A stretch of 51,123 bases of DNA from contig VBEG01000028.1 in NCBI GenBank assembly GCA_005882115.1, forward strand, positions 1-51,123, given 5' to 3'. The notes beneath the pieces are model-generated. The model searched no databases. It was not told the origin of the DNA and was given only the letters and a program-made list of their open reading frames with translations. The DNA is from Chloroflexota bacterium (GTDB lineage Bacteria > Chloroflexota > Dormibacteria > Dormibacterales > Dormibacteraceae). The translations under genes were made by a program, and so were the position numbers. Below are positions 44,500-51,123 of this stretch, in pieces; the stretch's first letter is position 1, and each line of letters starts with the position of its first letter.

Positions 44500-45177
44500 A
44501 TGACCGCCAAGTTGCTGGTGGTTGATGACGAGCCGCGCACGGCGGAGCTGACTGCTGAGATCTTGCGTCGGGCCGGATATTCAGTCGACGTGGCGGGAAG
44601 CGGCACGGAAGCCCTCGAGCGAGTGCGCCTGGGGTCGCCGGACCTGATGTTGCTGGACTACGAGATGCCGGACATGGAGGCGCCCGAGGTACTCGATTCG
44701 CTTCGTTCCGGCGGTGAGCGGATCGCCTTTCCAGTGATCATCCTCACCGGCGCCAGGCATTCACCCGCAGATCAGGTGGTCGGCATCGAGCGCGGCGCGA
44801 CCGATTACATCGTCAAAGGCACCGACCGCCAGGTCATGCTCGCCCGGGTCCGAGGCGCGTTGCGCGAGCGAGCGTCAGCGCCGGGCGCTGTGGTGCGCGG
44901 GCGGCTTCATGTCGACGCGTTTCGGGGAGAGGCGCGTCTGGGTGACCGGCACCTCAAGCTCGAACGCAGGCCGCTGCTGATGCTCCAGCTGTTGGCCAAT
45001 CGGTCCGGCGAGGTGGTGCCGCGGTCCGAGCTGCTGGAGCGGGTGTGGGGCAGCTCGTATACGGGCTTTGAGCACAGCATGGAGCAGGCGGTGCACCAGG
45101 TCCGCCGCGAGCTGCGGGAGCCCGGATGGATAGAGACGGTCCGTGGGATCGGATACCGGTTCGTCGTCCAGAACTGA
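44500..45177 (+). CDS. OmpR-family response regulator
   Basis: Receiver with acidic pair DDE (D9, D10), acceptor Asp53 in LMLLDYEMPDME, Thr83 and switch Lys106 in DYIVKGTD, followed by a Trans_reg_C winged helix (HLKLERRPLLMLQLLANRSG, VPRSELLERVWGSSY, EQAVHQVRRELREPG, VRGIGYRFVVQN). 225 residues. ATG 44500 is preceded by GGAGG too closely to be ideal. The kinase of this cluster is NarL-type, so pairing is uncertain. Divergent from the GAF/LuxR gene with 101 bases between, in which no clear promoter is seen. Confidence 0.93.
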   Translation: MTAKLLVVDDEPRTAELTAEILRRAGYSVDVAGSGTEALERVRLGSPDLMLLDYEMPDMEAPEVLDSLRSGGERIAFPVIILTGARHSPADQVVGIERGATDYIVKGTDRQVMLARVRGALRERASAPGAVVRGRLHVDAFRGEARLGDRHLKLERRPLLMLQLLANRSGEVVPRSELLERVWGSSYTGFEHSMEQAVHQVRRELREPGWIETVRGIGYRFVVQN

Positions 45178-45679
45178 GCTCGCGGGGGCGCTGCACCGCC
45201 TGCGGTCGGCGCTGGCGAGGGCCCGGGCCGAGCTCGAGCTCGCTCAGACCGATGGCGAACCGGTGCCGGCGGATAGGCTCGTCGGCGACCTCGGTGAGGC
45301 GCTGGAGCTGTTAGGAGCGGTAGAGGCGGCCGCATTCGCGATCGTCCCGGTCCTCGTGCTGGACGACGATGATCGGCTGGCGGAGTTGACAGCCAGAGGT
45401 CTTCGACGATTGGGCTACGAGGCAGAGTCAGCGGGTCGCCTCCGAGCGCTGAGGCCGCGCGAGGTGGTGGTGTTCGACCTGGGGTTGTCGGCGTCCCTCG
45501 ATGCGGCGCAGCGGGGGGCGCTCCGGGCGGCGCGGCCGATCGTCGTCACTGGCGCAGCCGACCCTGGATCCCGAGCCATCGCGGAGGATCTCGGGGCGTT
45601 CGACTACATGGTCAAGCCGGTCGAGCTGGAGGATCTCGCGGCGGCGATCAGCCGCCGAATGGCTCAAGAGCGACACTAG
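45143..45679 (+). CDS. Receiver-domain protein with helical N-terminus
   Basis: 178 residues. After a helical N-terminal part (LAGALHRLRSALARARAELE) a receiver begins near residue 69: VLVLDDDDRLAELTARGLRR, acceptor Asp112 in VVVFDLGLS, Thr in VVTGAADPG, switch Lys158 in FDYMVKPVE. The receiver has a shortened middle and no output domain, like a stand-alone CheY/Spo0F-type relay. GTG 45143 overlaps the end of the OmpR-type gene by 35 bases in another frame. The start is uncertain, but the receiver is clear. Confidence 0.75.
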   Translation: MGSDTGSSSRTELAGALHRLRSALARARAELELAQTDGEPVPADRLVGDLGEALELLGAVEAAAFAIVPVLVLDDDDRLAELTARGLRRLGYEAESAGRLRALRPREVVVFDLGLSASLDAAQRGALRAARPIVVTGAADPGSRAIAEDLGAFDYMVKPVELEDLAAAISRRMAQERH

Positions 45680-45759
45680 AATCGCGCCGTCTTGTTGTCG
45701 ATGTAGGCGAAAGTCCTATATGAGACAGCGTTTTGCGGGCGCAGACTCAAAAGAGGCGC

Positions 45760-47400: not shown

Positions 47401-47841
47401 ATGACTCCGAAGACAAACCGTGAGGTCGTTGAGCAATACGTCAAGGCTCTTATCGCCCGTGATCTCGACCTGCAGGCCGAGGTATGCAATCGGGACATGG
47501 TCGTCGACTACCCCCAGTCGGGCGAACGGATCCGCGGTTGGGACAATTTTCGCGCGGCCCATGAGAGCTATCCGGGCGGTCTTCCGCAGGGTGCCGCGGC
47601 CAAGGTTGTCGGCAGCGAGGACAAATGGGTGCTAGGCCCAAGTTTCAACATCCTGCGAATCGAAGGGACGGGTGACATCTACACCCTCGTCGGTTCCGCC
47701 AGATACCCCGACGGCAGGACGTGGCAGGTAATGGCGCTCCTTGAGTTGCGTTCGGGCAAAATCGCCAAGACGACTGAGGTTTATGGTGCCCCCTTCGACC
47801 CACCGGCGTGGCGGGCGCAGTGGGTTGAGCGTACGACCTGA
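47401..47841 (+). CDS. SnoaL-like / NTF2-fold protein
   Basis: 146 residues with the pattern of SnoaL-like cone-fold proteins: EVVEQYVKALIARDLDLQAE (first helices), the DMVVDYPQSGERIRGWDNFR strand with Tyr/Pro pocket, and strands IYTLVGSARYPDGRTWQVMA and KIAKTTEVYGAPFDPPAW. Members include polyketide cyclases, limonene epoxide hydrolases and many uncharacterised enzymes, so function is not set. ATG 47401 has AGGAGG at 47387, a strong ribosome site. Stands alone. Confidence 0.8.
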   Translation: MTPKTNREVVEQYVKALIARDLDLQAEVCNRDMVVDYPQSGERIRGWDNFRAAHESYPGGLPQGAAAKVVGSEDKWVLGPSFNILRIEGTGDIYTLVGSARYPDGRTWQVMALLELRSGKIAKTTEVYGAPFDPPAWRAQWVERTT

Positions 47842-47917: not shown

Positions 47918-47974
47918 TCAGCCGGCGAAAGGTGGAAGTGTGACGGTGAAGACCGCTCCGTGGGGAAAGCGAAC
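47918..47974 (-). pseudogene. Histidine-kinase 3'-end remnant A
   Basis: The minus strand reads VRFPHGAVFTVTLPPFAG then TGA, the last strand of a HATPase domain. It matches the end of the kinase at 50849 (RRGAVFTVVLPPYVG). Only about 19 codons are preserved and nothing kinase-like lies upstream. Confidence 0.6.
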
Positions 47975-47979
47975 CGACG

Positions 47980-48064
47980 TTAGCCGGCGGAGGGCGACAG
48001 TACAACGGTGAACACGGCGTTTCGGCGGGTACCCGCGAACAAAAGCTGACCTTGATGCCAGCGC
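47980..48064 (-). pseudogene. Histidine-kinase 3'-end remnant B
   Basis: The minus strand reads VRWHQGQLLFAGTRRNAVFT then VVLSPSAG and TAA. The same region in the kinase at 50849 is VREHQGQLIYEGNRRGAVFT. Upstream similarity continues weakly for a few codons in a shifted frame, then stops. Confidence 0.65.
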
Positions 48065-48207
48065 ACGGCGACCTCCTGTATGAGTCGGACCTTGTCCACC
48101 TGGCGGCCCAAAGATCGGCTCCGACGTGACCTCAGGCGGGTCACGTTTGGAGGCGCGGCTCTGGCGCCGCTCATGGAGTACCCTTTGGGCCAACTGGTCC
48201 GCACAGC

Positions 48208-49086
48208 GTGGGTAAAACGATGCAAGAAGCGAAGCTCGAAGCCAGGTTCCAGATGTGGGTTGCGCGCGGGGGACGCGTGCGCCTGGAGCCGACGGAGCGA
48301 CGCGTGCGAGCTAGGCTCGGAGGCATTACGGTTGCGGACAGCCGGCGGGCTCAGCTCCTCTATTTGCCGCCGCCCTTCAACGCGTATGCCTTCCCCCGGG
48401 ACGACGTGCGATGGGAGCTACTGCACGAATCCGGAATCGCCTCGACCATGCCGGCTGTTGGCGAGGTGAAACAGTGGACTGTCGCGGCCGGTGGACAGGT
48501 TCGCGACGGTGCGGTGTGGACCTTCCCTCAGCCACCACCCGGCTTGGAGCCGCTGGTTGGGCTGGCAGTTATTCGCTGGCAAATGATGGACGCATGGTTT
48601 GAAGAGGACGATGAGGTGTTCGTCCACCCGCGGGATCCCTATCACCGCGTCGATGTTCTTAACTCGTCGCGCCATGTAAAGGTGAGCGTGGGCGGCGAAG
48701 TCGTCGCCGAGACGCGCAGACCACGCCTGCTGTTCGAGACCAGCCTGCCTGTCCGGTACTACATCCCAATGCTCGATGTGAGGATGGACCTGCTCGAATC
48801 AAGCGACACGATCTCACGCTGTCCCTATAAGGGTGTCGCATCCTACTGGTCCGTTCGTCTTGGGGGAACACTCCACGCCGACCTCGCCTGGTCGTACAGA
48901 TCGCCGATTCCGGAGTGCCCCAAAATCGAGAACTTGATCGCCTTTTTCAACGAGCGCGTCGACCTCGATATCGACGAAGAGCGCGTGCAGCGCCCGCAAA
49001 CGCCATGGTCCGTTGGCCCAGACGGTCAAGCGCCCAACAGGGTCGCGGATCGTGCTGTACCGCCAGCGGACAATGGAAGCGTGTGA
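48208..49086 (+). CDS. Protein with two DUF427 domains
   Basis: 292 residues with tandem DUF427 modules. First (about 20-130): RVRLEPTERRVRARLGGITV, ADSRRAQLLYLPPPFNAYAF, PRDDVRWELL. Second (about 145-260): HPRDPYHRVDVLNSSRHVKV, ETRRPRLLFETSLPVRYYIP, DVRMDLLESSDTISRCPYKG and VASYWSVRLGG. The family is widespread in soil bacteria and fungi, sometimes beside nucleotidyltransferase genes; its activity is unknown. GTG 48208 or ATG 48220 starts the frame. It is flanked on both sides by kinase remnants on the opposite strand. Confidence 0.88.
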   Translation: MGKTMQEAKLEARFQMWVARGGRVRLEPTERRVRARLGGITVADSRRAQLLYLPPPFNAYAFPRDDVRWELLHESGIASTMPAVGEVKQWTVAAGGQVRDGAVWTFPQPPPGLEPLVGLAVIRWQMMDAWFEEDDEVFVHPRDPYHRVDVLNSSRHVKVSVGGEVVAETRRPRLLFETSLPVRYYIPMLDVRMDLLESSDTISRCPYKGVASYWSVRLGGTLHADLAWSYRSPIPECPKIENLIAFFNERVDLDIDEERVQRPQTPWSVGPDGQAPNRVADRAVPPADNGSV

Positions 49087-49547
49087 TGTCAACCGCTTCC
49101 CGACCCAAGCGGCCGGGTGTGGGTCGGGCCGCGCGCCTGCTGGCTGCATCCTTTGTTGCTGCGCCCCCTTGTGCAATCTGCGGGCGCGGACACGCCCAGA
49201 GCTGCTGGCATCTCGATCCGATGGGCGGTATGCACGGTCGCTGCCCGAGCTGCACCGATATCCAAGCGTCTGCCGCAACGATGCCGAAATCAGCCTCCTC
49301 GCCCGCGAACTAGCCGCGACTCACAGAGCGTTCGAACCGCGGAAGAACCACGGTGAACACGGCCCCATGGCGATTGCCTTCGAACAAAAGTTGGCCCTGA
49401 TGCTCGCGCGCGACTGTTTGCCATATGAGGCGCAGCACTCATCGATTCGCGATGGCGTCGGACAAACAACCCCAACGTGTGAACGTAAGCGCGATCCAGT
49501 GCCCGAGCGCCGTAACTGACTGCTCAAACGGGCCGTTTCGACAGCTA
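49087..49547. other. Intergenic region with kinase remnant C
   Basis: About 460 bases. A 168-codon open frame (49013-49519) crosses it but is Cys/Arg-rich without conserved features and is judged spurious. The only recognisable element is a minus-strand kinase remnant (49310-49440). Confidence 0.55.
49310..49440 (-). pseudogene. Histidine-kinase 3'-end remnant C
   Basis: The minus strand reads VAREHQGQLLFEGNRHGAVF then TVVLPRFERSVSRG and TAG. It is the closest of the remnants to the kinase at 50849 (IVREHQGQLIYEGNRRGAVF). Upstream, ASYG matches the MSYG of that kinase but in another frame, so the copy is frameshifted and truncated. Confidence 0.7.
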
Positions 49548-50753
49548 ATGAAGCCTCCGATCACCCTTGTCGCCGCTGTCGTTGTCATCGGGTGCACGAC
49601 CTCGAACCCTCAGGGCGCCGTGACATCGCCCACAGCCATGGTCTCGTCGAACGCGGCACAGCCGTCTCCGTCCGGGAGCTCGAATCCGAGCTCCACGCCG
49701 AGCCCGAGCGATCTCCAGTTGGGCACCGTGGACGGCACGTGCCAGCTGCCGGTCGTGACATTGACGCAGAACCTCGCAAACAACTCCGCCACATACGTAG
49801 GCGGTTTCGTGAGCTTCACGGAGCCGCCGGCGGTTCTTGCACCGGTCTTCAGGCCGGACTCCAGCGGTGTGATTCGCGCGCGCTGGGATTACGCGGACCT
49901 GGCCACCGACACGATGCCGATTCTGTACGGCAATCCTCAATCAGGAACTCACGCACCGTCATACGACGCGTCTCTTCGACGTTGGATCCCGGCCGCTGCA
50001 TCGCAGTTGACGCCGGACCACACCCGTTATGCATACGCGAGTGGCAACGACCAGACGACCATTCACGTCGTCGACGTTGCGCAAGGGACGGAGGCTCAAT
50101 TTGCCGTGGCGACTCATGGACCTCTGGCGGGAACACCACAGGTCACTGATTTCGATGGTTCCAGTGTCTTCTTCCTCGTGAACGTAGCGGGAAACGATGG
50201 GACCGATATCTGGCGACTGGATCTAGCCTCGGCCACCGCCATCAAGCTCGCACCGATGCCCGGGGTAATGATGGTTCGCGGGGGCTACGCCTGGGTCGGC
50301 CGAACAGATCCTCGCGATCCATCGCCGCCTACAGCCCCCTTCCCCGAGCAAAAGTTCAACAGCATCGTCAGAGTCGACCTCGGCAGTGGGGCCGAGACAA
50401 TTTGGTACTACCGCCCGGGTACAGAGGTGTGGATCGGCGGGCTGAGCCCGACGGGCTCGCCCATCGTGAATGTTGCGTCCGGCCCCCAGTTCCACAGCCC
50501 AGGCGAGATCAGGCAGGTCGTTCAACCCGGCGAACAGGGCATGCTCATATACAGCGGCGGCCTCGGATTCGCTGGCCCACATGTCGATGTGATCGATCTT
50601 TCGCCCGCTGCGCGTTCGTTTGATCGTTTTTGGTTTGGCAACGGCCTGGGCCTTTACCTCTACACGCAATCCGGCGGGATGCGCAAAGTGTTCGATATAC
50701 CCAGCAGTCTGAGCGCCAACGGAGGGATCTTCCCTGCGGGCGATTGCCGATAA
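49548..50753 (+). CDS. Lipoprotein with beta-propeller-like repeats
   Basis: 401 residues from ATG 49548. MKPPITLVAAVVVIGCTTSN is a type II signal peptide with lipobox VIGC. A Ser/Pro/Ala/Asn-rich linker (about 25-58) keeps the domain away from the membrane. The body has repeated strands of a propeller: TRYAYASGNDQTTIHVVDVA, SSVFFLVNVAGNDGTDIWRL, GYAWVGRTDPRDPS, NSIVRVDLGSGAETIWYYRP and HVDVIDLSPAARSFDRFWFG. No catalytic motif. The open frame back to 49425 lacks conservation. Similar surface lipoproteins are common in Dormibacterota- and Chloroflexota-like genomes; function unknown. Confidence 0.82.
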   Translation: MKPPITLVAAVVVIGCTTSNPQGAVTSPTAMVSSNAAQPSPSGSSNPSSTPSPSDLQLGTVDGTCQLPVVTLTQNLANNSATYVGGFVSFTEPPAVLAPVFRPDSSGVIRARWDYADLATDTMPILYGNPQSGTHAPSYDASLRRWIPAAASQLTPDHTRYAYASGNDQTTIHVVDVAQGTEAQFAVATHGPLAGTPQVTDFDGSSVFFLVNVAGNDGTDIWRLDLASATAIKLAPMPGVMMVRGGYAWVGRTDPRDPSPPTAPFPEQKFNSIVRVDLGSGAETIWYYRPGTEVWIGGLSPTGSPIVNVASGPQFHSPGEIRQVVQPGEQGMLIYSGGLGFAGPHVDVIDLSPAARSFDRFWFGNGLGLYLYTQSGGMRKVFDIPSSLSANGGIFPAGDCR

Positions 50754-50848
50754 CGCATAAAGGCAGTGCTACCGCGACTCGGCTACTCTGAACATGTACC
50801 CCAACCGCTGTTGGGCAATGGCTCAGGGAGGCGGATGACAGTCGCGGA

Positions 50849-51123
50849 TCAGCCGACGTATGGCGGAAGAACGACAGTGAAGACCGCGCCGCGGCGATTC
50901 CCTTCGTAAATTAGTTGGCCTTGATGTTCTCTGACAATTCCATAAGACATGAAGAGCCCAAGTCCGGTCCCGCTTTCCTTCGTGGTGAAGTGTGGCTCGA
51001 AAAGATGGTGGCGATTTTCATCGGATACTCCTGGGCCGTTGTCTGACACGCTGAAAAAAGGCCAGCCGTTGCCACGTTTTCCGGTCGTCAAATAGACGCG
51101 TCCGTTCGAGGGGGCGGCATCGA
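50849..51123 (-). CDS. Histidine kinase, C-terminal part (truncated by window edge)
   Basis: The minus strand from the window end reads into a HATPase domain: SVSDNGPGVSDENRHHLFEP (G1 box), HFTTKESGTGLGLFMSYGIV (F/G2 box) and REHQGQLIYEGNRRGAVFTV before VLPPYVG and TGA at 50849-50851. At least 91 residues are seen; the sensor and DHp parts are outside. Its end is the model for the three remnants at 47.9-49.4 kb. The G boxes are intact, so this copy is probably functional. Confidence 0.9.
   Translation of the reverse strand, partial: DAAPSNGRVYLTTGKRGNGWPFFSVSDNGPGVSDENRHHLFEPHFTTKESGTGLGLFMSYGIVREHQGQLIYEGNRRGAVFTVVLPPYVG

Follow-up and report, generated by a model that had tools for sequence, protein, structure and literature searches.

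Why should the last codons of one histidine kinase gene recur between unrelated genes that are read in the opposite direction? The question is raised by the window, i.e., the whole contig C115 (51,123 bases) of the draft genome G000 (147 contigs, 96.5% complete), whose host is most likely a soil bacterium of the Dormibacterota, from a family without cultured members. An earlier note on this DNA described four minus-strand copies of a kinase C-terminus. It proposed that they mark either recurrent recombination at the kinase 3' end, which brings in genes and behaves as a boundary, or the debris of a tandem kinase family. Most known examples of single-gene cassettes lined up at one fixed position come from integrons and dif modules. 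We know of no cultured mobile-element model in this phylum.

Kinase ends in the window

Searches by tblastn and a sequence profile found the minus-strand copies where they had been placed, with small coordinate corrections (Table 1). Two full displaced copies, a truncated one and a remnant are present in the window, together with a single intact kinase 3' end. The copies reported at 47918-47974 and 47980-48064 are both real: they are a truncated unit and, next to it, a full one. The repeat is indeed the kinase 3' end, as claimed, but it also includes an arm of about 27 bp that is not kinase sequence. To the four copies of the earlier note, a further remnant of the ancestral end has to be added. 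That only the last copy leads into an intact HATPase was confirmed by extending the sequence to the right. The end of contig C104 equals that of C115 over 131 identical bp, and the joined sequence encodes an uninterrupted histidine kinase of 465 aa. A NarL-type regulator lies beside the joined gene in the opposite reading direction, as in relatives. All genomes are drafts and the kinase meets the window through this overlap; relatives have the same gene order.

Table 1 Features of the window. The profile used for unit positions was built partly from the window's own copies; tblastn was run with the full kinase as query
Feature	Position	Strand	Internal parts	Evidence and remarks
Response-regulator-like gene, 178 aa, left anchor	45143..45679	+		Pfam Response_reg below cut-off; position conserved in relatives
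Ancestral kinase 3' end remnant	45646..45675 (approx.)	-		Overlaps end of anchor gene; 83% to 50847-50876 (repeat search); blastn 45648-45689 to kinase end, 77%, E 0.07; homologous to empty-site overlap in G009
Inserted gene, 350 aa	45733..46785	+		No Pfam match; similar gene after same anchor in G003 (L056:5867-6895), similarity at N-terminus
SnoaL-like cassette gene	47401..47841	+		Pfam SnoaL_2
Truncated displaced kinase 3' end	47919..47963	-	Second half of unit only	Profile positions 60-104; tblastn 47921-47959, 77%, E 0.11 alone; blastn E 1.4e-4
Full displaced unit	47981..48084	-	Arm 48059-48084; core CCTTGATGC (+ strand) 48050-48058; kinase tail codons 47983-48049	Profile E 4e-23 (unit in model); tblastn 47983-48066, 68% identity, E 2.7e-6
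DUF427 cassette gene	48208..49086	+		Pfam NTP_transf_9/DUF427 E 1e-46
Full displaced unit	49327..49429	-	Arm 49404-49429; core 49395-49403; then kinase tail, stop codon lost	Profile E 5e-25 (unit in model); tblastn 49334-49414, 74% identity, E 2e-8
Lipoprotein-like cassette gene	49551..50753	+		No Pfam match; weak homologue in G051 array, 27%; mechanical ORF start 49425 is inside the unit's arm, 49551 is the start chosen by the analyst
Kinase 3' part (HATPase_c)	50849..51123	-	Current tail 50849-50926; core 50919-50927	Pfam HATPase_c E 3e-15; runs off contig, continues in C104

The strong additional matches of the full kinase in the window concern only its last ~28 codons. Other histidine kinases of G000 are 24-33% identical to the kinase query, apart from one partial paralogue (58%), while the fragments reach 66-71%. 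Since the fragments match this kinase far better than the other kinases do, they are copies of the end of this gene, and their similarity exceeds that of generic HATPase C-termini. The 58% match is a second kinase copy on contig C29 of the same genome (L066:3393-4244), aligned over codons 18-303 at the amino acid level and cut by the contig end. Its neighbour resembles one at the main locus, and the copy may be a paralogue or a contaminant.

One locus across the family

Kinase orthologues are present in most genomes of family f1. The synteny comparison proposed in the earlier note revealed one locus across the family, in the order gyrA, histidine kinase, LuxR-like gene, response regulator, 178-aa receiver-like gene, variable stretch, and convergent kinase. 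Between the anchor and the kinase, the variable stretch holds between 0 and 6 displaced copies, each corresponding to the final ~28 codons of the kinase. It is absent at the empty sites of G006 and G009, where the anchor and the kinase are 42 bp apart or overlap by ~31 bp. An ancestral layout with several full kinases was not seen in the relatives, which have single kinases with an empty convergent junction. One to six displaced tails were found in ten genomes (G000, G007, G008, G010, G016, G017, G046, G047, G051, and G056), and the arrays of in-frame tails at this locus extend over several genera. The tails are all in kinase orientation and alternate with unrelated, horizontally shared genes, so that the alternation and the presence of the 3' segment beside other accessory genes are not peculiar to the window.

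The array counts are lower bounds, as many contigs end inside the kinase. This was observed for C115, C104, and C29 of G000 and for the kinase contigs of G004, G007, G012, G016, G017, G024, and G051. Such contig ends suggest repeats or strain variation at the locus, and the array may explain the assembly breaks. Another observation concerns the kinases of G006 (L062) and G014 (L063). Their N-terminal sensor part is 39% identical to the query and their C-terminal half 79-82%, which suggests that the sensor part was exchanged as well.

Anatomy of the displaced unit

When aligned, the displaced copies read left arm CTCATATAGSAA...GTCGTGCGC, followed by GAG or TGG and then GCATCAAGG, after which come ~70 bp of in-frame kinase tail with a stop codon. 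The ~27-bp arm (CTCATATAGSAA...GCGC) opens nearly all full displaced copies, and its edge ATATGAG is conserved. Kinases are devoid of the arm and carry their own coding sequence (TTCATGTCNTAYGG...) at this position. At 0-1 mismatch, the arm was located at these arrays and in two solitary copies (G047, G002). The core GCATCARGG covers the codons for His-Gln-Gly, which come right behind the HATPase G2 box. On inspection, roughly half of the displaced copies have inverted repeats resembling GCTGGC-ATCAAG-GCCAGC on both sides of the core, the others having one half-site only. For 13 displaced units, RNAalifold predicts no pairs in the consensus fold.

Most differences between tails, whether displaced or still part of a kinase, affect third codon positions. 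Several displaced copies have since decayed through loss of the stop, new stops, or deletions. The third-position bias and the later decay fit tails that ended working kinases until they were displaced.

Other functions of the unit were considered and rejected. TATATG and TTGATG in the arm were considered as promoter elements with a spacing of about 19, but the scan was negative and several of the genes downstream are read in the opposite direction. The start codon of a small ORF begun by AGGAGG...GTG in the arm is not conserved. As for a terminator-like hairpin at 48045-48062, such sites are fewer than in shuffles.

Some copies depart from the common pattern. In genus g23 (L080 in G056, L081 in G057), a 3-bp insertion and a distinct sequence are common to the kinase tail and the displaced copies; these displaced copies nevertheless carry the common arm. 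In G047, a solitary full arm-core-tail copy (L075:9568-9671, contig C1) has no kinase beside it and is flanked by two large RCC1-repeat genes resembling those of the G047 array. About 4.7 kb from it lies a Ccr-related large serine recombinase (L075:3332-4903). In G002, where the kinase was not found in the genome, a solitary arm with a decayed tail (L086:2049-2121, contig C72) lies downstream of a predicted tRNA-SeC, some 30-80 bp away.

Before/after comparisons and the breakpoint

The MarR-cupin cassette adjoins the kinase in G046 and is third in the array of its congener G047. Displaced copy 2 of G047, which borders this cassette towards the kinase, equals the G046 kinase tail and 60 bp beyond, at about 88-90% identity. 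The homology begins abruptly at GCATCA, and to the left of it G047 has an arm and a hydrolase cassette. The G047 kinase differs from that of G046 in its tail and downstream DNA, with new cassettes on the kinase side. Tail identity amounts to 0.905 between the G046 kinase and G047 copy 2 and to 0.757 between the two kinases, with a cross-genome mean of 0.656 (sd 0.073). In the second pair, the kinases of G008 and G016, identity per 67-bp window is 82-93% in the final ~540 bp ahead of the core but 61% for the stretch from the core to the stop. Moreover, the empty site of G009 can be aligned with G046 across the anchor gene and the ancestral tail, as far as the arm. These three comparisons place the crossover within about nine bases and show that the incoming DNA supplies the new end of the kinase.

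The tail G007_3 resembles G046_k and G047_2 yet adjoins SnoaL, and the DinB pair G005_k/G046_1 displays no tail linkage. As similar tails stand beside different genes and the DinB pair is unlinked, later reshuffling must be assumed. When body identity was set against tail identity for every pair of kinases, the 80-bp body windows were too noisy to test a correlation.

Cassette content and exchange

The units measure ~0.6-6 kb and comprise one to a few genes each. Their contents are accessory. Pfam matches include SnoaL, DUF427, DinB, cupin/MarR, hydrolase, SDR, glyoxalase, RCC1, and DUF5063, and further products are lipoprotein-like or unknown proteins. No conjugation or mobilisation genes were found among the Pfam content of the cassettes. 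A cassette protein of G007 (L069:1980-2615) has a sub-threshold match to the C-terminal family of the T6SS immunity protein Tdi1.

Several cassettes are shared. The SnoaL gene of the window has a cassette homologue in G007 (L069) with 79% aa identity (blastp). A G007 cassette is 92% identical at the DNA level to a cassette of a different genus, G017 (L069/L079). The MarR-cupin pair of G022 is 85-88% identical in DNA to that of G046 or G047, while flanking core regions are mostly at 70-79%. Such identities indicate that cassettes move between genera. Regarding possible viral carriers, two sequence patterns had no match in IMG/VR. A search of genome contigs with the arm-plus-core pattern, aimed at occurrences outside family f1, returned four contigs only, which match known members of the family.

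Proposed mechanism and alternatives

The relatives, the before/after pairs, and the horizontally shared cassettes all favour the first reading of the earlier note, namely recurrent recombination with the kinase 3' end as boundary. The kinase 3' end is probably an attachment site, at which small cassettes integrate site-specifically at GCATCARGG, each bringing its own kinase tail. A unit would consist of one to a few genes with the ~27-bp arm in front and a homologue of the last ~28 kinase codons at its end. Recombination at the His-Gln-Gly codons would integrate the unit, presumably from a circular intermediate, and join the kinase body to the incoming tail, so that the kinase stays intact. 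The old tail, now behind the incoming arm, would move downstream. Repeated rounds would generate the order kinase-tail1, gene1, arm-tail2, gene2, arm-tail3, with the ancestral tail in last place, where it overlaps the convergent response-regulator gene. The recombinase would act in trans and could be provided by a transient mobile element or be the conserved Xer-like tyrosine recombinase. The sequences themselves show that there is one hot spot, how the unit is built, where the breakpoint lies, that tails are replaced, and that genera share genes; the recombination event is deduced from them. Short and diverged tails, a narrow breakpoint, and a conserved arm make site-specific recombination the most likely explanation. 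It is weakened by the lack of a recognised recombinase, by inverted repeats in only about half of the copies, by the later reshuffling that has to be assumed, and by the draft state of the data.

Alternatively, circles or linear DNA with a kinase 3' end could recombine through the general recombination of the host (Campbell-type), with no site-specific enzyme. The tails are homologous over ~80 bp, the product junctions would look identical, and the missing recombinase would be expected. Nevertheless, this route seems unlikely: tails that are ~66% identical on average are short for RecA-type recombination, and the conserved arm is left unexplained. In G046/G047, the old-tail identity resumes a few bases from the core, which places the crossover in about 9 bp. 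Less probable still is an integron-like accretion inside the array, in which crossover at the outer edge of the arm would insert cassettes between displaced copies with the kinase uninvolved. The homology of shared cassettes does stop at this edge (L069/L079, L074/L075), and the edge is conserved, but conserved arms make it uninformative, and the model does not predict the replacement of kinase tails in G046/G047 and G008/G016. Finally, debris of duplicated kinases, all but one cut to their 3' ends with other genes filling the gaps, would account for co-oriented, in-frame tails but is very improbable, as kinase sequence upstream of codon ~437 accompanies 0 of about 30 displaced copies in family f1, the full copies begin alike with a non-kinase arm, empty sites hold one kinase only, and different genera have cassettes in common at high identity.

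Search for the recombinase

For the site-specific integration favoured here, a recombinase was sought. None was recognised among the cassette ORFs examined. Serine recombinases (PF00239) are absent from most array genomes and not conserved across them, and among the tyrosine recombinases of family f1 (PF00589) no extra one is conserved across the array genomes. In G008, G017, and G056, arrays are present together with a single, Xer-like tyrosine recombinase each. Two typed proteins of the conserved tyrosine-recombinase type (L099, L101) match XerC models best, below the curated cut-off, and score far below the cut-off for the integron integrase IntI. The enzyme may be a Xer-like protein, the integrase of a transient element, or none if general recombination suffices. 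A more specific proposal is tentative: a host recombinase, e.g., the conserved Xer-like one, might capture single-gene cassettes in trans, each capture also replacing the C-terminal strands of the kinase. If true, gene acquisition would be coupled to the diversification of the kinase tail in an integron-like system with a protein-coding attachment site.

Comparison with known systems

Genomic islands at gene 3' ends (ICE, IME, CIME) combine insertion, restoration of the target, and tandem accretion (reviewed in PMC5704250). PAISt at bacA is an example (PMC4057263). The islands resemble the kinase array in that the element brings a new 3' end for its target, the old end persists as a displaced direct repeat, and successive insertions line up in tandem. 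The units studied here differ in their small size of one to a few genes, among which neither integrase nor transfer genes were recognised; as many as six displaced copies stand in a row, the ~80-bp tails are strongly diverged, and the target is a sensor kinase. As in CIMEs, direct repeats of the target 3' end bound the insert and the target gene is restored; among the cassette ORFs examined, neither an integrase in the element nor a related autonomous element at the site was found.

The likeness to integrons lies in single-gene cassettes with a recombination site each, in exchange between species, and in an ordered array at a fixed chromosomal platform. The array is, nonetheless, not an integron: it has no recognised integron integrase (IntI) and no conserved attC fold, its site lies in the coding sequence of a kinase, and the kinase receives a new C-terminus with every insertion. 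The dif modules (pdif, XerC/XerD) of Acinetobacter plasmids are small modules that shuffle via the host Xer system (PMC6449649, PMC13141974). Like the cassettes, they are small gene modules without their own recombinase, but the sites of the array are chromosomal, coding, and not recognisably dif-like by eye. SCC elements, which depend on the Ccr recombinase, also insert at the 3' end of a conserved gene (rlmH) and form composite arrays. In contrast, the target here is a histidine kinase and no ccr is present in the arrays, a Ccr-related large serine recombinase being found near the solitary copy of G047 only (L075).

No report of such an array was found in the literature, and, as far as the searched literature reaches, gene capture in which a sensor kinase gets new C-terminal strands each time is undescribed. 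An independent array with the coding 3' end of a signalling kinase as its site would demonstrate another route of cassette capture beside integrons and dif modules. It would offer a test of which recombinase can use coding sequence as a site, and a hot spot for finding horizontally acquired genes in Dormibacterota.
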